A DNA stretch of 50,227 bases from Acidobacteria bacterium 13_1_20CM_3_53_8 (GTDB taxonomy: Bacteria; Acidobacteriota; Blastocatellia; Pyrinomonadales; Pyrinomonadaceae). A program made the translations under genes and the position numbers. Below the pieces are notes generated by a model. The model was given only the letters and a program-made list of their open reading frames with translations. It was not told the DNA's origin and did not search any database. Numbering within the stretch: the first letter of the stretch is position 1; every line of letters begins with the position of its first letter. Positions 21,495 through 50,227 of this stretch are shown one piece after another. The DNA lies in NCBI GenBank assembly GCA_001920415.1, contig MNJR01000034.1, forward strand, positions 1-50,227, read 5' to 3'.

Positions 21495-21553
21495 TTGTCG
21501 TTGGGAGTTGATTTTGAGAAAGTGTATATTTAGAGAGCGTTCAAAATCGCTTT

Positions 21554-21668
21554 GCGAGCTTAAGTATTTCCCTTTGCGCCTTTGCGTGAAACTGCAATTC
21601 ACTTGAAGCTCAAGATTCATGTGAATTGCAGTTTCACGCAAAGGCGCAAAGATAAGAGATAAGCTCGC
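21554..21668. repeat. Long palindromic dispersed repeat, copy 2
   Basis: Nearly identical arms to copy 1 (287-401), including GCGAGCTTAAG and CTTTGCGCCTTTGCGTGAA, but the loop segment (CTTGAAGCTCAAGATTCATG) is close to the reverse complement of that in copy 1, as if the centre had been flipped. Confidence 0.85.
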
Positions 21669-21791
21669 CAGGAGTTCGACTCCTACAGGGGTTGAAATGA
21701 TTTCTTAGTTAAGAATTGAGCTAGATTTTTTATGAATTACTCTCGCTCTGTGTTCGTCGAGTCTCTTATCTTTAGATAGATTGAAACTTGA

Positions 21792-23720: not shown

Positions 23721-23762
23721 AAAACAAACTTTTGCGTAAGGTGAGTGAATCAATCTCCTCTT

Positions 23763-23879
23763 AGCAAGCTTAAGTTTTTATCTTTGCGCCTTTGCGTGAA
23801 ACTGCAATTCCCTTGATACTCAAGAATCATGTGAGTTGCAGTTTCACGCTGTAGAAGCAAAGAAAAGAGCAAAGACCGC
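23763..23879. repeat. Long palindromic dispersed repeat, copy 3
   Basis: Left arm AGCAAGCTTAAG and CTTTGCGCCTTTGCGTGAA as in copies 1 and 2; the right arm is partly decayed (CACGCTGTAGAAGCAAAG). The loop has the same orientation as copy 2. Downstream of the TPR gene. Confidence 0.78.
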
Positions 23880-23917
23880 AAAGGGTTGAGCAGTTACTAC
23901 AGATTTGCAATTGACTT

Positions 23918-36335: not shown

Positions 36336-38556
36336 GTGGATACGACACTGAAGCTCATCGGCAGACAAAGATTCGCAAGCCTATACCAGTGGACAATCAT
36401 AGTCCTCGGCGCGCTTGTGTTCTGCTCTTCCGCCGCTCACATCCCGCTTCAGCTAATAGACATGCGTTACCTGTTGCTGACTTCCATGACGGTCATCATC
36501 AGTTCGCGTCTCGCTGTCAAAGTCCCGCGCGTCAACACCAACGTAACCATCTCCGACACCTTCATCTTCCTTGCGCTGCTGCTATACGGCGGCGACGCTG
36601 CAATCATATTGGCGACGGCAGAAGGGCTTTGCTCAGGAGCCAGAGTCGGCAAGAAACTTCGAACGATTCTCTTCAACTCGGCTGTAATGGCCTGCTCAAC
36701 AATGCTAACGGCTCAGGCCGTCAACTTCATCTTCGGCGATCCGACAGAGTTGCTGCGACAGACTTTCTCAGTCGTCATGATGGGAACTTGCGTGATAGCG
36801 CTCGCGCAATACTTTGCCAACACATGGATAGCCGCGATAGGCATGTCCTTCAAGAACAATCAACCGTTCTTGAAGATGTGGAGCGAAAATTTTCTCTGGA
36901 TTTCGATAACATACTTTGCTGGCGCAGGCGCAGCCAGTTTCATCGCGAGCAGTGTCGGAATGATAGGCTTCTACGCAATGCTCGTCGCCGTACCCATCAT
37001 CTCGATTCTCTATTTCACCTACTACAAATATCTGGAAGACATCCGTGCAACCTCCGCACAGGCCGAGCAGGCAGAGCGTGCGCGAGCAGAAGCCGAGCGT
37101 GCAAGAGCCGAGATTGAGCGAGAGCGCGCCGAACAGGCCGAACACCACGTAGAAGAATTGAACCTGCACATAGCCGAGCAGGAACGCATCAGTTGCGCGC
37201 TTGAAGAGAGCCGCGAGCATTTCCGTCACGCAGCTTTTCATGATGCGCTGACGGGGCTGCCGAACCGCGCGCTTCTAACAGACCACCTGAAGCTTTCGAT
37301 TGAACGCGCGAAACTTCATCACGATCATCTCTTCGCAGTTCTCTTTCTAGACCTGGATCGCTTCAAGAATATCAACGACAGTCTGGGCCACGTAGCTGGC
37401 GACCAGTTGCTCATCAACATCGCTCGAAGATTGGAAGAATGCCTGCGCCCGACCGATACGGTTGCGCGTCTTGGCGGCGACGAGTTCGCAATCCTTCTTG
37501 ATGGGCTGGAAGAATACGATGATGCTATACGTGTGGCCGAGCGTGCGCAGCGAGAGTTGATGCGACCTTTCAACCTGAACGGGCACGAAGTCTACACAAC
37601 TGCGAGCATAGGCATAACCTTGAGCACTACGGATTACGACCACCCGGAAAGCGTGCTGCGCGACGCAGACACAGCCATGTATCGCGCCAAAGAGAACGGC
37701 AAGGCTCGCTACGAACTGTTCGACAAGATAATGCACGCGCGCGCTGTCGAGCGATTGCAGTTAGAGAATGATCTGCGGCGCGCAATTGAACGAAGCGAGT
37801 TTCATGTTTACTACCAGCCCATCGTCTCGCTCGATGCGGACAGGCTTGCTGGCTTTGAAGCCCTCGTCAGATGGGAGCACCCGGAGCGCGGCATTATCTC
37901 GCCCATTGAATTCATAGCCAGCGCAGAAGAGACAGGGTTGATTGTAGAGTTGGGCCAATGGGTTCTTAAAGAAGCCTGCCGACAGATGCATGAATGGCAA
38001 TGGCAGAATCGCGCTCACCGCCATCTGAGACCTGCTAGGCCAGATCAAGCGCACGCTTTCTGAAACTGGGCTTGATCCGCGCTGTCTTAAGCTTGAGATA
38101 ACGGAATCGGTCGTGATGGAGAACGCAGAGACGGCCAGCACAATGCTTATGCAACTACGCGCTCTAGGCGTTCACCTGAGCATAGACGATTTTGGCACGG
38201 GCTATTCTTCATTGAGCTACCTGCACCGTTTCCCCGTCAACACCTTGAAGATTGACCGCTCGTTCATCAGCCGCATGGGAGCGGGCGACGAGAACACAGA
38301 GATCGTTCGCACCATCATCACGCTCGCCAGCAATCTTGGCATGAAAGTCATCGCCGAAGGAGTCGAAACGCAATCGCAACTTGCTCAGCTTAAAGAGATG
38401 AAATGCGATTACGGGCAAGGCTATCTCTTCTCCAGACCAATGCACGCTGAAGCGGCTGGACTGCTTATCCTCAGAGGATACCGTCAGCCCGTTGAATCCG
38501 ATATGGAGGAGAAAATTCTAGATGCTTCTGAGGATAGCTTTGTGTATATCAATTAA
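36336..38556 (+). pseudogene. Membrane GGDEF-EAL protein, broken in the EAL domain
   Basis: GTG start. Five or six membrane helices (about 20-230), a coiled coil rich in Ala/Glu/Arg (about 240-285), then an intact GGDEF domain (RLGGDEFAILLDG) and the start of an EAL domain (GFEALVRWEHP). The first frame stops at 38063. The rest of EAL continues in another frame from about 38028 (DLLGQIKRTLSETGLD, then EITESVV, DDFGTGYSSLSYL, KIDRSF, VIAEGVET) to 38556. The expected VNLS segment with its metal-binding Asn is missing, so a deletion with frameshift removed it. The cyclase part may still be made; the phosphodiesterase is very likely dead. A sequencing error cannot be excluded but would not explain the lost segment. 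Confidence 0.85.
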
Positions 38557-40302: not shown

Positions 40303-40352
40303 TTAATCGGGGCGAGAGGATTTGAACCTCCGACCCTTCGGTCCCAAACCGA
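40303..40352. repeat. Left attachment site (attL)
   Basis: 50 bp identical to 50040-50089. It begins TTAATCGGGGCG and ends GGTCCCAAACCGA, the 3' part of tRNA-Pro from the anticodon stem/loop onwards, without the 5' half. Confidence 0.95.
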
Positions 40353-40559: not shown

Positions 40560-41726
40560 ATGGCAAGACAAAGAGAAGGGTATATACAAAAGCTAACAGA
40601 CGGCTCTCTTTGGGCGCGAGTGACTTACACCGGCTCAGACGGCAAGCGTCACACGCTACGCCGTAAGGTAAAGAACCGCACAGAGGGTAAGAAGCTTCTT
40701 AGAGAATTGATTGACGGCCTAGACCGGGTAGGAGACCACGCGGTTGAGGGCGACCGGATGCGCTTTCGTGATCTGGCGCAAAGGTACGAAGCCGAAAGAC
40801 TCATAGAGGCTCGCTATCACAACGACCGTAAGGTTGCTGGGCTTCGCTCGTGGAAAGTGCCGCGAGTGTATATCAGAGTCTTGGCGGCATACTTCGGCAA
40901 TCAGTTTATTAAGAGCATTACTCACGCCGACATTGAAAGGTTTAAGTCTCACCGGCTTTTAACTCCGGTAAGATGCGGCACGGACGCTAAGACAGGCGAG
41001 CCGACCTGCCGACCGCGCGCAATTGCCGCCGTCAATCGAGAGCTTGAGTTAATGCGCGCTGTGATGCGCTACGCACAGCGTCAGGGCTGGATTTACCGAA
41101 GTCCTTTCGAGATGGGTTCGCCGCTCATTAGCAAGGCAGACGAGACGCGGCGCGAGCGCACCTTAAGCCATGATGAAGAGGCACTGCTTTTAGCGGCCTG
41201 TGCCGGACGTAGGGCGCACTTGCGGCCTCTCTTAATCGCTGCCCTAGACACCGGCATGAGGCGCGGAGAACTGTTAAAGCTCGAATGGCGCGACGTTGAT
41301 CTTGCGGGCGCAATAATCATTGTAAGAGCAATGAACAGCAAGACGGCACGCGCGCGCATCGTGCCGATGACGCCGCGCCTGCGCGCCGAGCTTGGGGCAC
41401 TATGGCAAAAGTCAGCGCTGGATATGAGCGCGCGCATCTTTGGTATAACCGATACGGTAAAGAATAGCTTTGCGTCAGCGTGCCGCGCGGCTGGGATTGA
41501 CGGCTTTCGCTTTCACGATTGCCGCCACACGGCTATAACTCGAATGATTGCTGCCGGTGTCCCGGCAGAAGAGGTAATGAAGATTTCGGGGCACACACAA
41601 ACGTCAACATTCCTGCGCTATCTCAACCCAACGGGCTATTCACTGAACAGAGCCGCCGAGATTCTTAGCTCTTTCAACGCTGACAGAAGCGAGAGCAAGC
41701 CGGATGCTACAAGTTTCATAAACTAA
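40560..41726 (+). CDS. int: Tyrosine recombinase/integrase
   Basis: 388 residues. An N-terminal Arm-type/SAM-like core-binding part (about 60-170), then the catalytic domain: Arg in TGMRRGELLKLEWRDVD, His-x-x-Arg in FHDCRHTAITRM, His in ISGHTQTS and the nucleophile Tyr in FLRYLNP. It catalyses site-specific insertion and excision at the tRNA-Pro repeat 208 bp upstream. An AGGGGAGG ribosome site precedes the ATG. The gap 40353-40559 has inverted copies of ACCATCAATT that may bind integrase. Confidence 0.95.
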   Translation: MARQREGYIQKLTDGSLWARVTYTGSDGKRHTLRRKVKNRTEGKKLLRELIDGLDRVGDHAVEGDRMRFRDLAQRYEAERLIEARYHNDRKVAGLRSWKVPRVYIRVLAAYFGNQFIKSITHADIERFKSHRLLTPVRCGTDAKTGEPTCRPRAIAAVNRELELMRAVMRYAQRQGWIYRSPFEMGSPLISKADETRRERTLSHDEEALLLAACAGRRAHLRPLLIAALDTGMRRGELLKLEWRDVDLAGAIIIVRAMNSKTARARIVPMTPRLRAELGALWQKSALDMSARIFGITDTVKNSFASACRAAGIDGFRFHDCRHTAITRMIAAGVPAEEVMKISGHTQTSTFLRYLNPTGYSLNRAAEILSSFNADRSESKPDATSFIN

Positions 41727-41743: not shown

Positions 41744-41785
41744 CACCGTAGCACCGCACTTACTTAAGAGGGTGATGTTTTGATG
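41744..41785 (+). repeat. 42-bp inverted repeat, left copy
   Basis: Perfect inverted match to 48861-48902. It contains a CTTACTTAAGAGGGTGATG ribosome-site region and ends in the ATG at 41783-41785, so it supplies a start for the 56-codon frame after it. Confidence 0.95.
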
Positions 41786-41953
41786 CTTCGGCGCGTGAAG
41801 GCTCGCGGTAAAACAATCCGCAAGGGTTATGTCGCCACTATGATCTGCGCGTCGAATTCTGTGGTATCTTCCTTTTGTAGTGGGCGGCTCGCCCACGAAA
41901 TTAAAATTCTTGCGCTCTTGATTAGCGCCTCTTGTGGCCGCTTTTGCGGCTAA
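41783..41953 (+). CDS. Possible 56-residue leader peptide
   Basis: ATG supplied by the 42-bp repeat, GAGGGTGATG upstream. The peptide is basic at first (LRRVKARGKTIRKGYVATM) and Cys/Ser/Leu-rich later. The stop codon lies within the 3' half of the terminator hairpin at 41924-41970, so translation would open that hairpin. This suggests an attenuator leader for the operon from 41981. No homology recognised. Confidence 0.45.
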   Translation: MLRRVKARGKTIRKGYVATMICASNSVVSSFCSGRLAHEIKILALLISASCGRFCG

Positions 41954-41970
41954 AGGGGCGCTTTGTTTTT
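41924..41970 (+). terminator. Strong terminator before the element's main operon
   Basis: AGCGCC...GCCGC-TTTT-GCGGC...GGCGCT stem followed by TTTGTTTTT. The U-run touches the AGGAG of the next gene, leaving no room for a promoter between them. Confidence 0.75.
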
Positions 41971-41980
41971 AGGAGTTGCT

Positions 41981-42175
41981 ATGCACGAGACAGAAACAAA
42001 ATTGATGAGCGAAAAAGAAGCAGCGCACGTGCTCGGCTTGCATTGGACAACAGTTCGTGACTATCGGCGCGCCGGGAAAATTCCATGTTATACGGTTGGA
42101 CGCCGCCCGGTTTACGCCCCACATCACCTTGAAGAGTATTTGCGGCACAAAGGGCGCGCCGCAAACAAAAACTAG
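41981..42175 (+). CDS. Excisionase-like HTH protein
   Basis: 64 residues from ATG 41981 (AGGAG upstream). MSEKEAAHVLGLHWTTVRDY and IPCYTVGRRPVYAPHHLEEY give the HTH_17/MerR-type winged helix used by phage excisionases and by helix-turn-helix adaptors. It is first in the run of plus-strand genes. A paralogue is encoded at 48642-48863. Confidence 0.85.
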   Translation: MHETETKLMSEKEAAHVLGLHWTTVRDYRRAGKIPCYTVGRRPVYAPHHLEEYLRHKGRAANKN

Positions 42176-42208
42176 CGCTCGCCGCGCGCTAAAACGCGAA
42201 AGAAGAAT

Positions 42209-43309
42209 ATGGCAGCACAAATACTTACTCTAGTTAAAAGACAATCGAGCGTGCCCCAAGCGCTTAGGGCGGCGTCGCCAAGTCCCGCAATACGCAACGA
42301 GTTTTATGAGGTAGATAGACTTGGTTGTTATACGGTGGGCGAATTCCTGGGCATGGTCTTTACTGAGGGCGAGCCTATTTTACACGGTCTTCATAAAGGG
42401 GAAATCGGCATCATTAACGGGATGCCGAACGCTGGCAAAAGCACGCTCGCGCTCAACACATGCCTTGCGCTCGCGTGCGGTCGCCCCTTTCCGCCGTTGG
42501 TTCCTTACGACGGCAAACCGCGCCGCGTACTTTATCTTGATTTTGAGAATACGCCTCGCCGGTTGCAGTCAGACCTCTTCGTAATGGCGCAAGCTCTCCC
42601 ACCCAAAGAGCGCGAGGTTGCGTGCGATAACTTCGCCGTCATTGTGGGCGCTGAACTCAACAACGAAACGCTTACCATTACAAATCAAGAGCACCTGAGA
42701 CAAATTGCGCGCGAGACGGCAGAACATCGCGCCGACCTGCTTGTTATAGACACGCTGGCGTCAGCAACGAGTTTGTACGATGAAAATTCCAACGCCGAAA
42801 TTCAGCGCAAGGTATTAACACCCCTTAGAAAGATTTGCCGACTTACGGGCTGTGCCGCGCTCATCATAGACCATAAAGGAAAGAAAGGGCTTGATGCCGT
42901 AGGAGGCGAGACACCGCTTTATGCCGGGAGAGGGGCGTCGGCTAAGGCTTGCGCGGCAAGGGTGATTTACAACCTAGACGCAGACCCGAAAGCCGAGAAT
43001 GTATCCCTCTTGAGTAACCCAAAGATCAAGGGGGATAAATTTCAGTCCGTTTTAATGAAGCTTGATAGCAATAGATGGTTCAGCGCGATAGGAAAGAGTG
43101 CCGCGCGCGAACAGTCAAACTATGAAGCGGTCGTTAGCTTCGTGCTGGCAGAGGCTAGGCCGGTTAAGCGTTCAGAAGTAATTGAAAAATTCGCCGCCGT
43201 TATATCTAAGCCGACAGTTGAGCGCGCTTTGCGCGATGCCATCGGGCGTGAGGTTTTACGGCTTACAAAGCGCGGAATGTATGAAGCCGTTGTCAACGAA
43301 GGTCAGTGA
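42209..43309 (+). CDS. RepA-like AAA/RecA-fold ATPase
   Basis: 366 residues. Walker A GMPNAGKSTLALN, Walker B DLLVIDTLASA, then AALIIDHKGKKG; these fit the AAA_25/RepA (RSF1010-like) group of hexameric DNA helicases. The C-terminal 80 residues (PVKRSEVIEKFAAVISKPTV) look like a winged helix. It probably supports replication of the excised element. Confidence 0.88.
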   Translation: MAAQILTLVKRQSSVPQALRAASPSPAIRNEFYEVDRLGCYTVGEFLGMVFTEGEPILHGLHKGEIGIINGMPNAGKSTLALNTCLALACGRPFPPLVPYDGKPRRVLYLDFENTPRRLQSDLFVMAQALPPKEREVACDNFAVIVGAELNNETLTITNQEHLRQIARETAEHRADLLVIDTLASATSLYDENSNAEIQRKVLTPLRKICRLTGCAALIIDHKGKKGLDAVGGETPLYAGRGASAKACAARVIYNLDADPKAENVSLLSNPKIKGDKFQSVLMKLDSNRWFSAIGKSAAREQSNYEAVVSFVLAEARPVKRSEVIEKFAAVISKPTVERALRDAIGREVLRLTKRGMYEAVVNEGQ

Positions 43310-43324
43310 TTGAAAAGGAGTGGT

Positions 43325-43576
43325 ATGCAAAAGGGCGACATGGCACAAGCAAAAGCAATTGGTCAGAGACTTGTTGACGGTCATGCGGTTGACCCGACAG
43401 CAAAACGCAAGGCGCGACTCGCGCGCAGCTTCAAAAAGGATGACCGCTTAGAGGCAATAATCAAGCTACGATTTGAAGACCCAAAGGCTTATGAGCAGCT
43501 ACCCGTGTCGGTTAAGGTTGCGGTCGGACATTACTTAACAGCGAAAGCAGCAAACGAAGAGATGGGAGCGAAATAA
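43325..43576 (+). CDS. Small basic protein of unknown function
   Basis: 83 residues from ATG 43325 with AAAGGAG just upstream (a TTG 15 nt earlier is less likely). Basic and helical (AKRKARLARSFKKDDRLEAI). Its stop overlaps the tape-measure start (TAATG), so the two are coupled; it may be a tail-assembly chaperone-like partner (inference). Confidence 0.7.
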   Translation: MQKGDMAQAKAIGQRLVDGHAVDPTAKRKARLARSFKKDDRLEAIIKLRFEDPKAYEQLPVSVKVAVGHYLTAKAANEEMGAK

Positions 43577-46314
43577 TGTCAATCGAAGCCGCACGACTAA
43601 TAGTTAGCGTTGAGAGCGCGGGCACTCAAAAGGTTGTGCGCGACCTCGGCGCGGTTGAGACCGGCGCTCAGCGTGCGGCGAATTCCATCAATAAGCTTGG
43701 CGACTCTGGCGGCGACATGCGCAAGCCCGGCGGATTCCTGCCCGGCCTCTCACAAATTTCTGAAATCATTCAAGGCGTGCCGCAAGTTGGCCGTCTCATG
43801 GGCGCGCTCATCAACCCGATCACCGGCGCGGCTGAGGCTGGCATTAAGTTCAACGCATTTCTCGAAACTACGCGCATCGGTCTTACAACCCTACTCGGCT
43901 CAGAAGAGGCCGCAATGCGCCACATGGCAGAGCTACAGGCTTTCGCCGAGCGCACGCCGTTTCAATTCCGCGACCTCGTAACCGGCTCTCAGCGTATGCA
44001 GGCTTTCGGTTTTCGAGCCGAGCAGGTTTTACCTATTCTCACGGCAGTTGGCAATGCCGTCGCGTCAACCGGCGAGATAAGCCGCGACGCTCTTGACGGC
44101 GTGCTCTTAGCTCTCGGTCAGATGAAAACTAAGGGCAAGGTTAGCGCCGAGGAAATGAATCAGATAGCCGAGCGCGGTATTCCGGCGTGGGAGTTGTTAT
44201 CTAAGGCTATCGGCAAGAGCGTTGCTGAAACAATGAAGCTCGCGCAGCTTGGCCGCTTACGCGGCGGCGCGGCGGTTGACGCAATAGCGGCCATGATGCA
44301 ACAGCGCTACGGCGGGCAGATGGACAGGTTGAGCGGCACGCTCACCGGGCGCTTAAGCAACCTTGAAGATATACGCGACCGCGCCGAGGGACTTGCGACG
44401 CAAGGACTCACGCAAGACCTGAGCAACATGCTCGGCACGGCGCTTGAGCATGGCGATTTGGCTACACGCCTTGCTAATTCCGTCAATCGCATGGTGACGC
44501 CGGTCAGCGCTCTCTTGCGCGCGAGCTTTAACACGCTTGTCGGCGGCGGAATAACCGAGGGCTTAACCGAAGGTATTGCCGCCGGGCAGACGCTTGTAAA
44601 GAGCACGATGCTTAACATGGCGCAAGATTCTATCTTGACGCCGTTTACAAGTTTCTTCGGCATACACTCGCCGTCAACCCTTATGTATCAGCACGGGCTA
44701 AACATCACGCAAGGGTTAGCGAACGGCATACATGACGGATTTATGCAGGTGCAAGGCCGCATGACTCAGGCGCAGAAAAAGAGTTTTCAGGCGCTTCAAG
44801 AGTTGATGCGCCGCGAGCCTGATTTCATGCCGAAGCTCATACAGATGAGCCGGGCGCGCGGCATTAACCCCGACCATCTTCTCAACCTCATGGCGCTTGA
44901 GACCGCCGGAAGCTTTAACCCGCACGTCGGCAACGGTCAGGGCTATTACGGGCTTATTCAGTTCGGACAGGCCGCGCGTAGCGAGGTCGGTTTGCCGCTT
45001 GACCGACTCTTACAGCAAAGCGCGACACAGCAACTTGATTACGTTTTCAAATATCTTGATACGCGCTTTCGTCGCTTCTATGGCAATACCGACATAACTC
45101 AGGCGATGCTTTACGCCTCGGTCGGCGCTGGGCACGCGACGCGCAATGATGACACGGTAATGTTTCGGCGCGAGGGCTATCAGCAAGGCGACGACCCGTT
45201 GACGCGCGGCATATCTCGCGCGGGCTATCGTGCGAACTATCACTCTTGGGACGTAAACGGCGACGGGCAAATACAGCAATTCGAGTTTGGGCAAGCCGCT
45301 CTCTCTCGCCTCGGCGCTGGCGTCAACTTCTCTGTCAACGGTGAGACCGTGCCCGTGCGCGTCGTTGATATTGTCGGCGGCGCGGCGGCTCTTATTGAGC
45401 GCTCAGGTTTGGGCGGCGGCGGCAATGCGTCTGAGCCGCCGTTCAGTCACATCACAGACGATCAAGCGCAGCACGTCTTAGATATTTTCAAACAGGCGCG
45501 CGCCAACCTTCCCGTTGACGGTGGGTTAATCGGCGACCTCGGCGACGTAAACCGGCTGATACTCAAGACGATTGACGCAACAAACACGCTAGGCGACGCG
45601 GCGGTTAATAGCGCGCAAGAGCTTCAAGATCAAGTCAAAGGCGCTGGCGCGTGGTACGACGACGTAGCAGTACAGTCAGAAGCAGCCGCGCAACGTCTCA
45701 AAATTCAGTGGGACGATGTTGCTCAAGGATTCGAGCAGGTTTTCGTTGATAGTTTAGATAGGACGCTCATGGACGGCGAAAACTTCTTTGCAGATTTCAG
45801 CAAAGGCTTTGCGCTTATGCTACTGCGAATGGCAGAGCAAGCGGCGGCAGCTAATCTCAGCAAGGCAATTTTTGGCTACGATGGACAGCAAGGCTCAGCG
45901 AGCGGCGGTTTCTTAAGTAAGCTTATCGGTTTTGGCATAAGCGCGCTTGGCGCTTTCTTCGGTGGCGGTAAGTCATTCGGAAAGTTGACCGGCATTAACC
46001 TGTCACCGGGCACGTATAGCTGGGGCGGTCTAACGAGCGTGATAGGCGGACACCGCGCAGACGGCGGGCGCGTGCGCGCCGGTCAACCTTACTACATCGG
46101 CGAGCGCGGCGTTGAAATGTACGTGCCCGACCGTGACGGGCTTGTGATCCCGAATCACGAGTTAGGGCAAATGACTCACGGCGGTCGCCCTATTCAAGTC
46201 GTCAATAATTTTCACGTTACAGCGCCGGGCGGTCGTTTACACGAAGAGTCGCAAAGACAAATGGCCGAGCGCACGGCACTAGCAGTTCAAAAGATGCTCA
46301 GAAGGATGAGCTAA
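43576..46314 (+). CDS. Phage tail tape-measure protein with lysozyme-like domain
   Basis: 912 residues. Residues about 55-290 are the tape-measure domain (LETTRIGLTTLLGSEEAAMR, FAERTPFQFRDLVTGSQRMQ, SAEEMNQIAERGIPAWELLS). About 415-580 is a lysozyme/SLT-like domain: NLMALETAGSFNPHVGNGQG holds the likely catalytic Glu, then YYGLIQFGQAAR. An EF-hand-like loop DVNGDGQIQQFE follows (about 557-568). The C-terminus has glycine-rich hydrophobic stretches and AGQPYYIGERGVEMYVPD, usual for tape measures. It sets tail length and may open the cell wall during injection. Size is enough for a long tail, although no other tail gene is seen here. Confidence 0.9.
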   Translation: MSIEAARLIVSVESAGTQKVVRDLGAVETGAQRAANSINKLGDSGGDMRKPGGFLPGLSQISEIIQGVPQVGRLMGALINPITGAAEAGIKFNAFLETTRIGLTTLLGSEEAAMRHMAELQAFAERTPFQFRDLVTGSQRMQAFGFRAEQVLPILTAVGNAVASTGEISRDALDGVLLALGQMKTKGKVSAEEMNQIAERGIPAWELLSKAIGKSVAETMKLAQLGRLRGGAAVDAIAAMMQQRYGGQMDRLSGTLTGRLSNLEDIRDRAEGLATQGLTQDLSNMLGTALEHGDLATRLANSVNRMVTPVSALLRASFNTLVGGGITEGLTEGIAAGQTLVKSTMLNMAQDSILTPFTSFFGIHSPSTLMYQHGLNITQGLANGIHDGFMQVQGRMTQAQKKSFQALQELMRREPDFMPKLIQMSRARGINPDHLLNLMALETAGSFNPHVGNGQGYYGLIQFGQAARSEVGLPLDRLLQQSATQQLDYVFKYLDTRFRRFYGNTDITQAMLYASVGAGHATRNDDTVMFRREGYQQGDDPLTRGISRAGYRANYHSWDVNGDGQIQQFEFGQAALSRLGAGVNFSVNGETVPVRVVDIVGGAAALIERSGLGGGGNASEPPFSHITDDQAQHVLDIFKQARANLPVDGGLIGDLGDVNRLILKTIDATNTLGDAAVNSAQELQDQVKGAGAWYDDVAVQSEAAAQRLKIQWDDVAQGFEQVFVDSLDRTLMDGENFFADFSKGFALMLLRMAEQAAAANLSKAIFGYDGQQGSASGGFLSKLIGFGISALGAFFGGGKSFGKLTGINLSPGTYSWGGLTSVIGGHRADGGRVRAGQPYYIGERGVEMYVPDRDGLVIPNHELGQMTHGGRPIQVVNNFHVTAPGGRLHEESQRQMAERTALAVQKMLRRMS

Positions 46315-46317
46315 TCA

Positions 46318-46362
46318 TGGCTGTTAGTTTCGTATTTGATGAGGTCTTACAAAGAACATAGG
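46318..46362 (+). pseudogene. 14-codon stub after the tape-measure gene
   Basis: ATG with AAGGATGAG upstream; MAVSFVFDEVLQRT then stop. It looks like the beginning of a tail gene cut off by deletion, followed at once by the next gene's AGGAG. Confidence 0.3.
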
Positions 46363-46371
46363 AGCGAAAAC

Positions 46372-46896
46372 ATGAACACTACGCAGAACGAAATAGAATC
46401 TGCAAAGGCCAGAGTTGAGGCGATCAGGACGCGCTTGGTTGCGGGCGACACGAAGGTTACAGCAAAGCAGCTTGCAGATGCGCGAGCGGAAATTGAATTC
46501 GCGGAATTGCGCGCAGAGGCCGAAGTGCAAGCGCGGCGCGAGCGCGCAGAGACCGAGAGACGAGAAAGGTTGAACGACTTTCAGCAAAGACTCGCCGCTC
46601 TTGACTCGCAAAAGCTTGACATATTGCGCGAGCGCGTGCGCGCCGCCGTTGAAGAATATGTTAGCGAAGCGGCGGCGTTTAATAACGAGCTTGAAGCCAT
46701 ACGTCAAGCCGTAGGAGAACCGGGCGCGTTTCCGGGCGAAGATGTTGACGCTTACCACGAGCGAACAGCCGTAAGAATCCGCGAGGTAATAGTGGGACGA
46801 CAACGACCGCAGAAAACTCTTAACGAGATCATCGTGCCCGCGCTAAGGCAGCACTCAGGGCGAGCGCGCATCAGTATAGACAATCCGCAAGACTAG
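46372..46896 (+). CDS. Coiled-coil protein of unknown function
   Basis: 174 residues from ATG 46372 (AGGAG upstream). Ala/Glu/Arg-rich, almost wholly helical (ADARAEIEFAELRAEAEVQA). It could be a scaffold-like or tail-associated protein, but nothing identifies it. Confidence 0.7.
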   Translation: MNTTQNEIESAKARVEAIRTRLVAGDTKVTAKQLADARAEIEFAELRAEAEVQARRERAETERRERLNDFQQRLAALDSQKLDILRERVRAAVEEYVSEAAAFNNELEAIRQAVGEPGAFPGEDVDAYHERTAVRIREVIVGRQRPQKTLNEIIVPALRQHSGRARISIDNPQD

Positions 46897-46910
46897 CCGA
46901 GAGAGTGTAA

Positions 46911-47144
46911 ATGTTAAGAGACGCTTTAGACCCCGGCGCTGATAACGCTTATCCCTATTTCCCGCGCCGCGCGGACGGCTCGCCGCTTTGGAGCGATAGC
47001 GCCGAAACGGACGGCATAAGGATTGATGGTGTAATACCAATGCCGCGCGGCTCGCGGTTCATCATTCGGGACGGTCGGCGCATAGCAATTGACGTGACAC
47101 CTCGCAACACAGACGGCGCGCCGGTCAACCCGCCGTCGCTCTAA
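46911..47144 (+). CDS. Small protein of unknown function
   Basis: 77 residues, 14 nt after the previous stop. Acidic start (LRDALDPGADNAYPYFPRRA), Pro/Gly-rich and beta-like, with two short RDG/RRD turns. No family recognised; possibly a small phage structural protein. Confidence 0.6.
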   Translation: MLRDALDPGADNAYPYFPRRADGSPLWSDSAETDGIRIDGVIPMPRGSRFIIRDGRRIAIDVTPRNTDGAPVNPPSL

Positions 47145-47164
47145 ATGGAAGAAAGCGGAAGATA

Positions 47165-47581
47165 ATGGAAGATTCCAGCGAAGAGCTTACACAAAAACAG
47201 GAGGCGGCTATTGTCGCGCTAATAACGCACGGCACGGTGCGCGAGGCGGCGCGCGCTTGCTCCATAGGCGAAACGACCTTGTTTCGCTGGCTGCAACAGC
47301 CCGCCTTCGCCGCCCGCTATCGCGCCGCGCGCCGCCAGGTGGTAGAGGCCGCTATAGGCCGATTGCAGAGACTTGCGGTTAGAGCTGTGGATACGCTTGA
47401 GCGGAATCTTAATTGCGAAAATCCAACGGCTGAAATCCGCTCGGCACAACTAATCCTTGGGCAAGGCGTGAAGGGCGTTGAGCTAATGGACACGCAAGAG
47501 CGGCTTGAAAGACTGGAGGCTTTGTTAGATGAGCGCGAAGAGAAGAATAAAGAGCTTAGAGAAGCGCGTCAGGATACTTAA
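47165..47581 (+). CDS. HTH protein, terminase small-subunit like
   Basis: 138 residues. An N-terminal helix-turn-helix (VREAARACSIGETTLFRWLQ) is followed by long helices (RLQRLAVRAVDTLERNL) and a charged coiled-coil end, like the phBC6A51-type small proteins related to terminase small subunits. It could recognise DNA for packaging by a helper phage, since no large terminase is present. The role is not proven. Confidence 0.75.
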   Translation: MEDSSEELTQKQEAAIVALITHGTVREAARACSIGETTLFRWLQQPAFAARYRAARRQVVEAAIGRLQRLAVRAVDTLERNLNCENPTAEIRSAQLILGQGVKGVELMDTQERLERLEALLDEREEKNKELREARQDT

Positions 47582-47696
47582 GGGCAGGGAGTGTACTCAT
47601 GCGTTTACTCTCGTTGTTGACGGTGAGATTGTGAAGAATGACCCGCCGTGCTCGTGCGGCGGCGAGCGGGTGAAGATCGTCGTGGAATATGTTTGA
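47529..47696 (+). CDS. Small Cys/His protein overlapping the HTH gene
   Basis: 55 residues from ATG 47529, in another frame within the end of the HTH gene; GGAGG about 10 nt upstream. Basic N-terminus (SAKRRIKSLEKRVRILKG), then CTHAF and PPCSCGGE, a possible zinc site. The frame stays open past the stop of the HTH gene into otherwise empty sequence, which supports it being real. Confidence 0.55.
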   Translation: MSAKRRIKSLEKRVRILKGRECTHAFTLVVDGEIVKNDPPCSCGGERVKIVVEYV

Positions 47697-47728
47697 AGAG
47701 TTCAGGGCGCGCGAAAGAGAACAGTAGA

Positions 47729-48211
47729 ATGAGCCGGGTTAATATAATCAGAGAAGCTAGAAAGTTCATTGGCAAGCCATACAAGCCGTTTAGCCTTAAC
47801 CCGGCTCAGGGGCTGGGCTGCGTTGGCGCTATCTTCATACCAGCCGCAATCGCTGGCTATCGCTGTGCGGAGTTTTGCCGCTTCAATAAACCGCCTGTCG
47901 GGGCACAGATGCCGCGTTTCTTGCCCCAACTTCAACGCCAGATGCGTCAAATACCAATTGCGCGAGCGACCATTGGGGACGTGCTCTTGTTAACTATGGG
48001 CGCGCACGGGCAACACTTGGCGCTCGTCACGAGCGAGCGCCCGAAGAGAGTTCTTCACTCATGGCCGACACCAACAGGAGGCGGAAGGGTTCAAGAGAAT
48101 GTCTTAGACTCGCCGATACACAGTAATAATCCGCGTCTTAGGTGGTCTGATCTCGTTGTTGCTGCATTCCGTTTTCACGAGCCGGTTATTAGTAAAGAGG
48201 AACACGAATGA
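47729..48211 (+). CDS. NlpC/P60-like peptidase, divergent
   Basis: 160 residues from ATG 47729. NPAQGLGCVGAIFIPA corresponds to the catalytic Cys motif but has Gly where the family has Asp (GLDC); HLALVTSERPKRVLHSW holds the His. Members cut cell-wall peptides; in phages they sit at the tail tip. Its stop overlaps the next start (ATGA). Confidence 0.8.
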   Translation: MSRVNIIREARKFIGKPYKPFSLNPAQGLGCVGAIFIPAAIAGYRCAEFCRFNKPPVGAQMPRFLPQLQRQMRQIPIARATIGDVLLLTMGAHGQHLALVTSERPKRVLHSWPTPTGGGRVQENVLDSPIHSNNPRLRWSDLVVAAFRFHEPVISKEEHE

Positions 48212-48633
48212 GACGAGCGGATATATTAAGAGAGGCGCGCAAGCTTCTGGGCGTACCGTTCAAGCTTGAGGGGCGCAACCCAACGACCGGGCTTGATTGT
48301 GCTGGTTTGGTTATTTGCGTCGCGCAGGCTTTTGGTTGTTTCAGGGGATTAGATTACCGGCCACACTCTAGCCCTTCAACGTCGGGCGCTTTTCCCGCAG
48401 CCGTCCAGCGTGAAACGCAAAGGATACCGGCTGCAAGCGCCAAGCCGGGCGATATACTTTACCTGAGCTTTAAGGGCATGAGAGCGGCTCATGTAGCAAT
48501 AGTCTCAGCGTTGTCGCCGTTAAGGGTGATTCACGCGGGCGATATGACAGAAAAGGTAATCGAAGCGCCGCTCAATGCGCGCTTAAAGCAATTCATTGTT
48601 TGCGCGTACCAGTTTCGAGGGCTTAAGGATTAA
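48208..48633 (+). CDS. NlpC/P60-family cell-wall peptidase
   Basis: 141 residues. NPTTGLDCAGLVICVA carries the catalytic Cys in its canonical setting and MRAAHVAIVSALSPL the His. It is clearly a paralogue of the upstream gene, with the same REARK-LG-PFKL opening, and has the intact motif. The pair probably arose by tandem duplication and may degrade the wall during tail penetration or release. Confidence 0.88.
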   Translation: MRRADILREARKLLGVPFKLEGRNPTTGLDCAGLVICVAQAFGCFRGLDYRPHSSPSTSGAFPAAVQRETQRIPAASAKPGDILYLSFKGMRAAHVAIVSALSPLRVIHAGDMTEKVIEAPLNARLKQFIVCAYQFRGLKD

Positions 48634-48641
48634 CCGACCGC

Positions 48642-48863
48642 CTATATTTCAGCTTTAATCTTTTCAAGGAAAGCCTCAACATCATCTTGTCCGTATAGCA
48701 CACGCCTCCCAACCGTGCGATATGTCAACACGCCCTTTTGCCTGAGCCGCCAAAGGGTCATACGCGAGAGGCCGGTGATCTTCTGAACTTCTGCGTCTGA
48801 GTAGAGCTTGGGCGTCCCTTCGCTTTGTTCCTCCATCACTAGCGGGACGAATATAAAAGACAT
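48642..48863 (-). CDS. Excisionase-like HTH protein
   Basis: 73 residues from the ATG at 48863, which belongs to the right copy of the 42-bp repeat (a TTG sits just before it). YSDAEVQKITGLSRMTLWRL with GVLTYRTVGRRVLYGQDDVE is an HTH_17/MerR-like fold. It is the second gene after the repressor on the minus strand, so repressor and excisionase candidate share a transcript. Its leader, ribosome site and start lie in the inverted repeat. Confidence 0.85.
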   Translation of the reverse strand: MSFIFVPLVMEEQSEGTPKLYSDAEVQKITGLSRMTLWRLRQKGVLTYRTVGRRVLYGQDDVEAFLEKIKAEI

Positions 48864-48902
48864 CAAAACATCACCCTCTTAAGTAAGTGCGGTGCTACGG
48901 TG
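48861..48902 (-). repeat. 42-bp inverted repeat, right copy
   Basis: Perfect inverted match to 41744-41785. It spans the junction of two genes: the last seven codons and stop of the repressor, the ribosome site and the ATG of the excisionase-like gene. Confidence 0.95.
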
Positions 48903-49118
48903 TCGCGCTCTTCTGTTAGACACACGGACAAGCAAATCGGTCAACTCGCACCCTAGAGCCTCGCACAAGCGGTCAAGAGTCTTGAGGGCGATCATTTCGG
49001 TTTCACCCTTCCACAGCCGCGCGGCCATGCCGGGCTTAACGTCCATAGCTTTTTGAAGCTGATAGGCGTTGGTTATTCCGCGCGCTTCGGCGGCCTCTCT
49101 AATCGTTAGTTTCACCAT
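48879..49118 (-). CDS. Cro/CI-type repressor
   Basis: 79 residues. LTIREAAEARGITNAYQLQK and GMAARLWKGETEMIALKTLD are the XRE-family helix-turn-helix, and DRLCEALGCELTDLL the usual end. It probably keeps the element quiet by binding the operator at 49126-49178, in the gap with the divergent gene. It is followed by the excisionase-like gene after 15 nt. Confidence 0.88.
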   Translation of the reverse strand: MVKLTIREAAEARGITNAYQLQKAMDVKPGMAARLWKGETEMIALKTLDRLCEALGCELTDLLVRVSNRRARHRSTALT

Positions 49119-49125
49119 AAAAATA

Positions 49126-49178
49126 TATTACCACAAAAGTGAAATAGTTGTTGACAGGCATTCACTCTTTTGGTAATA
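49126..49178. promoter_or_regulatory. Operator for the element repressor
   Basis: TATTACCACAAAAGTG at 49126-49141 and CACTCTTTTGGTAATA at 49163-49178 form an inverted pair (14 of 16 matching). The right half covers the -10 of the plus-strand promoter, and the left half lies near the repressor gene's own start. Confidence 0.65.
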
Positions 49179-49179
49179 T
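49151..49179 (+). promoter_or_regulatory. Sigma70 promoter
   Basis: TTGACA, 17-nt spacer, TAATAT. It drives the SWIM-type gene and overlaps the operator. Confidence 0.75.
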
Positions 49180-49222
49180 TCACACATCAGGTAATACTAA
49201 TAACCTTGAGAGGAAACGCCAG

Positions 49223-49483
49223 ATGTTCACACTAGAAACAACAGAAATCGCAAGGGCAATCGAAAACGCAAAAGCTCTTCACCCGAAAGTTAGAATGATT
49301 CGCTTTGGTGAATACTCGGTTTCAGGCAGCACGGGCAATGCCTACACCGTTCATTGCTACCGCGACAACGGCCAAAAAGTTGTTGATTGCTCGTGCCCGA
49401 CGCGAGACGGTATTGCCTGTAAGCATGGCGTAGCCGCCGTCTCTCTTCATATTGCAATAGCGGCTCGCAAGCGCGCCCATTAA
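49223..49483 (+). CDS. SWIM zinc-finger protein
   Basis: 86 residues from ATG 49223 (GAGAGG upstream); the longer frame from 49148 would include the promoter. VDCSCPTRDGIACKHGVAAV is the SWIM motif (CxC...CxH), a zinc module for DNA or protein binding. It is the first gene of the right arm, under the repressor-controlled promoter, so it may be an early function such as anti-repression or control of host DNA (inference). Confidence 0.8.
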   Translation: MFTLETTEIARAIENAKALHPKVRMIRFGEYSVSGSTGNAYTVHCYRDNGQKVVDCSCPTRDGIACKHGVAAVSLHIAIAARKRAH

Positions 49484-50039: not shown

Positions 50040-50089
50040 TTAATCGGGGCGAGAGGATTTGAACCTCCGACCCTTCGGTCCCAAACCGA
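50040..50089. repeat. Right attachment site (attR)
   Basis: 50 bp identical to 40303-40352; forms the 3' part of the intact tRNA-Pro gene. Confidence 0.95.
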
Positions 50090-50117
50090 ATGCTCTACCA
50101 GGCTGAGCCACGCCCCG
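50044..50117 (-). tRNA. tRNA-Pro (TGG)
   Basis: Minus strand CGGGGCGTGGCTCAGCC; anticodon loop TTTGGGA (TGG); T-arm GGAGGTTCAAATCCTC; acceptor CGGGGCG/CGCCCCG with discriminator A, CCA not encoded. The element's repeat restores its 3' part. 50118-50227 holds nothing recognised. Confidence 0.96.
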
Positions 50118-50227
50118 ATAATGGTTCGACGATAATAAATGCCGAACTTTTGTGACTCATTCTAGCGAGCAGCTTGGATTCCGGTCAAGCTTTCAATTGC
50201 GCGTGGGCCATATTTGGGACGGAGTTC

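Follow-up and report, generated by a model that had tools for sequence, protein, structure and literature searches.

Templated inverted insertion and inversion with duplicated breakpoints both leave short perfect inverted copies at the two ends of a DNA segment. At the pneumococcal cod locus, spontaneous inversions that occur at low frequency and independently of RecA have been described beside those driven by PsrA (PMC7096588). Amongst phage satellites, the model used for PICMI elements accepts PF12728, to which HTH17a and HTH17b of the island analysed here belong, as AlpA (PMC10803314). A literature search, judged mostly from listings, returned no recognised report of an arrangement of the kind described below.

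The window, the whole stretch of DNA that was analysed, is a complete contig (C2) of 50,227 bp from a 155-contig assembly. A Pyrinomonadaceae MAG (L202) is among its relatives, which places the host in the Acidobacteriota and probably in that family. It carries an island of approximately 9.7 kb that is integrated at a tRNA-Pro gene between 50-bp identical direct repeats (50/50), and the contig ends 109 bp beyond the tRNA. The integrase, HTH17a, AAA_25 ATPase, a small gene, the tape measure protein, further small genes, the small-terminase-like protein, two small genes and the NlpC/P60 hydrolase follow one another on the + strand. To their right lie HTH17b and the repressor, both on the - strand with the repressor rightmost, and then the SWIM gene and one more gene on the + strand. 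With an integrase, an AlpA-like HTH protein, a replication gene, att repeats and a size of about 10 kb, this is a satellite-like island in the PICI/PICMI sense. Family searches with 11 island proteins matched neither a capsid nor a portal family and recognised one recombinase, the att integrase; an Rfam scan of the island returned the tRNA alone. The tape measure, NlpC/P60 and small-terminase-like genes (43576-48633, +) are unusual for a satellite as small as 9.7 kb.

Table. Positions of the island features within the 50,227-bp window
Feature	Position	Strand	Details
attL-type direct repeat, 3' part of tRNA-Pro	40303-40352		50/50 identical to 50040-50089
Tyrosine recombinase/integrase	40560-41726	+	PF00589 E 1.7e-23; phrog_1 E 8e-58
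Left copy of 42-bp repeat	41744-41785	+	Starts 17 bp behind integrase stop
56-codon frame after left copy	41783-41953	+	Codon score -0.058; without relatives
Strongly structured leader before HTH17a	41880-41990	+	-52.8 kcal/mol, z -5.16, 0/200 shuffles as good
HTH17a, AlpA/excisionase-like	41981-42175	+	PF12728 E 5.7e-10; phrog_66 E 9e-10
AAA_25/DnaB-like replication ATPase	42209-43309	+	PF13481 E 1.4e-31
Tape measure protein	43576-46314	+	PF20155 E 5.6e-26
Small-terminase-like HTH protein (weak)	47165-47581	+	phrog_2538 E 1.5e-6
NlpC/P60 hydrolase, tail-associated	48208-48633	+	PF00877 E 2.1e-6; phrog_329 E 5e-14
HTH17b, AlpA/excisionase-like; start codon within right copy	48642-48863	-	PF12728 E 3e-10; phrog_66 E 8e-10
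Right copy of 42-bp repeat	48861-48902	-	Last 7 codons and stop of repressor, ribosome site, ATG of HTH17b
Repressor, HTH_26, Cro/C1 type, 79 aa	48879-49118	-	PF13443 E 2.4e-12
Sigma-70-like promoter, repressor/SWIM interval	49151-49180	+	10/12 consensus matches; whole scan not above shuffles
SWIM zinc-finger gene, divergent from repressor	49223-49483	+	PF04434 E 3.8e-4; 69% identity in sister L134
attR-type direct repeat, overlaps intact tRNA-Pro	50040-50089		
tRNA-Pro (tgg), integration target	50043-50118	-	

The core of the island is enclosed by a perfect 42-bp inverted repeat, as a sequence-only reading of this DNA had reported: the two copies are exact reverse complements over 42/42 bases and lie 7075 bp apart. 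Both also close, as that reading had noted, with the same ribosome site and ATG (AAGAGGGTGATGTTTTGATG). When the element was shuffled 100 times with its dinucleotides preserved, exact inverted pairs with arms more than 300 bp apart reached at most 11-18 bp, and the observed pair is far above chance. No third copy was present in the 6.1-Mb assembly containing the window, and the 21-base core of the repeat had no exact match in the viral_contigs and genome_contigs sets. Perfect inverted pairs of at least 30 bp are rare, not unique, with one other case among 80 related loci (1.10 Mb); from this count L072, L150, L151 and L162 were dropped as duplicates of the same locus, and L165, L102 and L147 were kept.

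Inverted sequences of other kinds were also seen. In L165, a 40-bp perfect inverted pair (7137-7176/9462-9501) with a further 17-mer match surrounds a 2.3-kb module, and in L087 an AAA gene lies between two sequences of about 49 bp (8365-8413/9475-9523) that resemble each other, form hairpins and have a 20-bp exact inverted core. In the host part of the contig, a palindromic repeat of about 132 bp recurs at dispersed sites (284-415, 21551-21682 and 23761-23892). This part also encodes a GGDEF/EAL-like protein (36336-38556, +; domain names read off the sequence) in two frames of 575 and 147 codons, broken around 38063-38113, which appears to be a frameshift or a sequencing error.

The two copies differ in their setting. 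Read on the - strand, the right copy comprises the final seven residues and stop codon of the repressor, then AAGAGGGTGATGTTTTG, then the ATG of HTH17b. The repressor stop is at the usual place, since the homologues in L134, L107 and L135 have lengths (77-80 aa) near that of the window repressor; these similar lengths are no proof of an old repressor/HTH17b junction, because the tails of the homologues are not conserved. The left copy leads into the 56-codon frame, for which a search found no relatives. Because the DNA after the left copy scores as non-coding (codon score -0.058, compared with a median of -0.08 for non-coding frames in 1071 windows and a 5% quantile of -0.007 for island genes in 423 windows), this frame is probably not a gene. 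The leader that follows (41880-41990) is formed of very stable nested hairpins with a T-rich end directly 5' of HTH17a, whose ribosome site is partly paired; its folding resembles that of an attenuator or a riboregulated leader.

Reversal of 41744-48902 in silico left the repressor (79 aa) and HTH17b intact, placed the start of HTH17b directly behind the integrase (int-HTH17b) and brought the leader-HTH17a-AAA operon behind the repressor. The geometry proposed earlier was thus borne out for the excisionase-like gene, but the 56-codon frame that was expected to come to lie behind the repressor is, by its codon score, probably no gene. Keeping both frames on inversion is a property of any repeat that spans an operon junction.

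The comparison of integrase loci covered 47 distinct loci: the window plus 46 relatives, three of them viral contigs (the distant loci L044, L045 and L204, all without the repeat; L046, L047, L048 and L205 gave no row), and left out integrase matches weaker than 1e-60 and HTH17 matches weaker than 1e-5. An inverted repeat of at least 15 bp behind the integrase was found in none of the 46 relatives, save for a 15-mer in L069 whose start lies within the integrase gene. Relative to the integrase, the cargo ran in the direction of the present form in 11 of the 12 relatives for which a cargo gene was labelled, and only L096 departed from it. HTH17 was the first labelled gene within 2.5 kb behind the integrase in 13/46 relatives and lay codirectionally within 400 bp of it in 6/46; in all, 20 HTH17 genes ran with the integrase and three against it. 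The relative with the best integrase E-value (L072, 53% identity) has the integrase, HTH17(+), AAA(+) and then HTH17(-), the same as in the window. An arrangement of the int-HTH17b type was present in L163, L071 and L088. The repressor (64%) and the SWIM gene recur in the sister L107, whose order of int(+), HTH17(+), cargo(-) and repressor(-) is the layout of the inverted form. Comparison with sister elements thus gave one sister with the inverted layout and 11 of 12 relatives with the present cargo direction, and the repeat in none.

In a phylogenetic tree HTH17b clustered with proteins of L163, L107 and L102, all codirectional with the integrase; with support of 0.46-0.71 and identities of about 30%, the tree was not decisive and was set aside for dating the home of HTH17b. 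A GGGCGGCT hairpin motif shared behind the integrase by the window, L088 and L202 (a Pyrinomonadaceae MAG) was likewise too weak to mark the age of the junction, being found in 3/47 loci compared with 38/2226 control tiles counted on both strands. Among 22 repressor loci, window included, HTH17 lies directly behind the repressor homologue in the window alone (1/22), and the repressor/HTH17b junction may therefore itself be derived. It had been proposed that the right copy is the natural one and the left copy derived from it; in favour of this, only the right copy falls within the ends of two coding regions, whereas the adjacency in 1/22 loci speaks against the right junction being simply the natural one. 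The relatives appear split on orientation, with neither form marked as the older, and their gene orders point to a possible earlier state in which the core lay the other way round.

A SWIM gene divergent from the repressor was found at four of the 22 repressor loci, window included, and the conserved divergent pair was seen in L134, L107, L147 and the window (48879-49483). In L134, L107 and the window, the pair lies beside a tRNA with different cargo after the repressor. The DNA behind the repressor encodes type I restriction-modification genes in L134 (from reading frames), other genes in L107, and HTH17b with the phage-like operon in the window; from these differences, the integrase-repressor interval reads as a variable cargo zone, and the repeat marks both of these ends in the window element alone. 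This documents a family of tRNA-integrated islands in the Blastocatellia with a common repressor/SWIM end and integrase, between which the cargo is swapped. Matches in viral contigs were distant only (integrase, four loci; tape measure, one locus; repressor, two loci), searches of the viral contigs with the AAA and SWIM proteins gave no confirmed relative, and no near match was found in phage records.

The pair could bound an invertible segment that acts as a heritable switch, in which HTH17b would now be co-transcribed with the repressor and, once flipped, would follow the integrase in an excision-ready state with the replication operon behind the repressor; we consider this unlikely. The copies do bound the segment as inverted repeats, as they would in a site-specific inversion switch, inversion keeps the repressor and HTH17b frames whole and yields the int-HTH17b order of L163, L071 and L088, and L107 has the flipped layout. 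Moving an AlpA-like gene would matter, because alpA supplied in trans is reported as sufficient for phage-free excision of PICMI satellites (PMC10803314). However, both frames would be kept whole by any repeat across an operon junction, and the frame predicted behind the repressor looks non-coding. Moreover, the assembly holds one orientation only, the left copy is absent from 46/46 integrase relatives, and no recombinase specific to the repeat was found among the 11 island proteins searched by family, in which the integrase was the one recombinase recognised. The repeat is unlike the att core of that enzyme, 462 of 500 shuffles scoring as well or better, and was rejected as an integrase site. 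The earlier suggestion of a heritable alternation between a quiet and an excision-ready state is not supported on these points. Two heritable island states produced by inversion of the 7.1-kb core, with the AlpA/excisionase-like activator tied either to the repressor or to the integrase and a subpopulation always ready for excision, are likewise unlikely; if the core does flip, a satellite-like element would be hedging dormancy against excision through DNA inversion.

It is also improbable that the repeat is a duplicated functional site (an operator, a translational coupling element or an RNA target) active at both places without inversion, with read-through from the late genes yielding an RNA antisense to the repressor/HTH17b junction. 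Such read-through would be antisense, since the cargo genes run towards HTH17b and the facing coding regions stop 8 bp apart (48633/48642), and the full ribosome site is kept in both copies; yet the folding of the repeat by itself does not surpass that of shuffles (z -0.29), its match to the repressor-SWIM intergenic region is not above shuffles (160/300 as good) and it is not conserved in relatives. An artefact of assembly or a mixture of strains in the MAG, for which the 155 contigs and the contig end 109 bp past the tRNA might speak, is very unlikely: a misjoin at the repeat would still require two true copies, both copies are flanked by unique sequence, and 42 bp is shorter than the usual read lengths. 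A transposon or other insertion bounded by inverted repeats was rejected, as there is no target duplication and no transposase was found inside; weak transposase-type HTH matches were confined to the small-terminase-like protein.

On balance, we lean slightly towards the pair being a recent short inverted duplication from one illegitimate rearrangement, now a static or rarely recombining scar; we infer both the mechanism of origin and the static state. Either a copy of the repressor/HTH17b junction would have been templated into the 3' flank of the integrase, or the core would have inverted through staggered breaks, duplicating the breakpoint sequence. The pair would now remain as a scar, over whose 42 bp homologous recombination could on rare occasions flip the core. 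Removing the left copy on paper joins the flanks as TTAAAG/CTTCGG and creates the palindrome AAGCTT, with the insertion point at its centre; this is only a hint, since an arm of three bases is expected by chance once in 64 cases. The pair has no flanking target duplication and its outer flanks differ. Perfect identity over 42 bp without decay could also be compatible with active use or gene conversion. The pair is real and, until an inverted form is seen, ordinary in kind; a functional switch is possible but unsupported.

Like the products of inversion with duplicated breakpoints or of templated inverted insertion, the locus has short perfect inverted copies at the ends of a segment; unlike them, its ancestral arrangement is not recoverable from the relatives and the route is a proposal. 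As described for the PsrA/cod locus of pneumococcus (PMC7096588) and the fim switch, inverted repeats of tens of bases surround coding DNA, and a flip would alter the succession of genes; those systems have a dedicated recombinase and demonstrated inversion, whereas for the island both are hypothetical. In comparison with PICMI satellites as described (PMC10803314), the island lies at tRNA-Pro rather than fis, and an AAA_25 ATPase replaces the DUF3987/DUF5906 primase. It further differs from PICMI in its tape measure, NlpC/P60 and small-terminase-like genes, in its Acidobacteriota host and in having no known helper phage. It is nevertheless like the PICMI/PICI-type phage satellites described there (PMC10803314) in being a small integrated island with a tyrosine integrase, HTH_17 (PF12728) and a replication protein.
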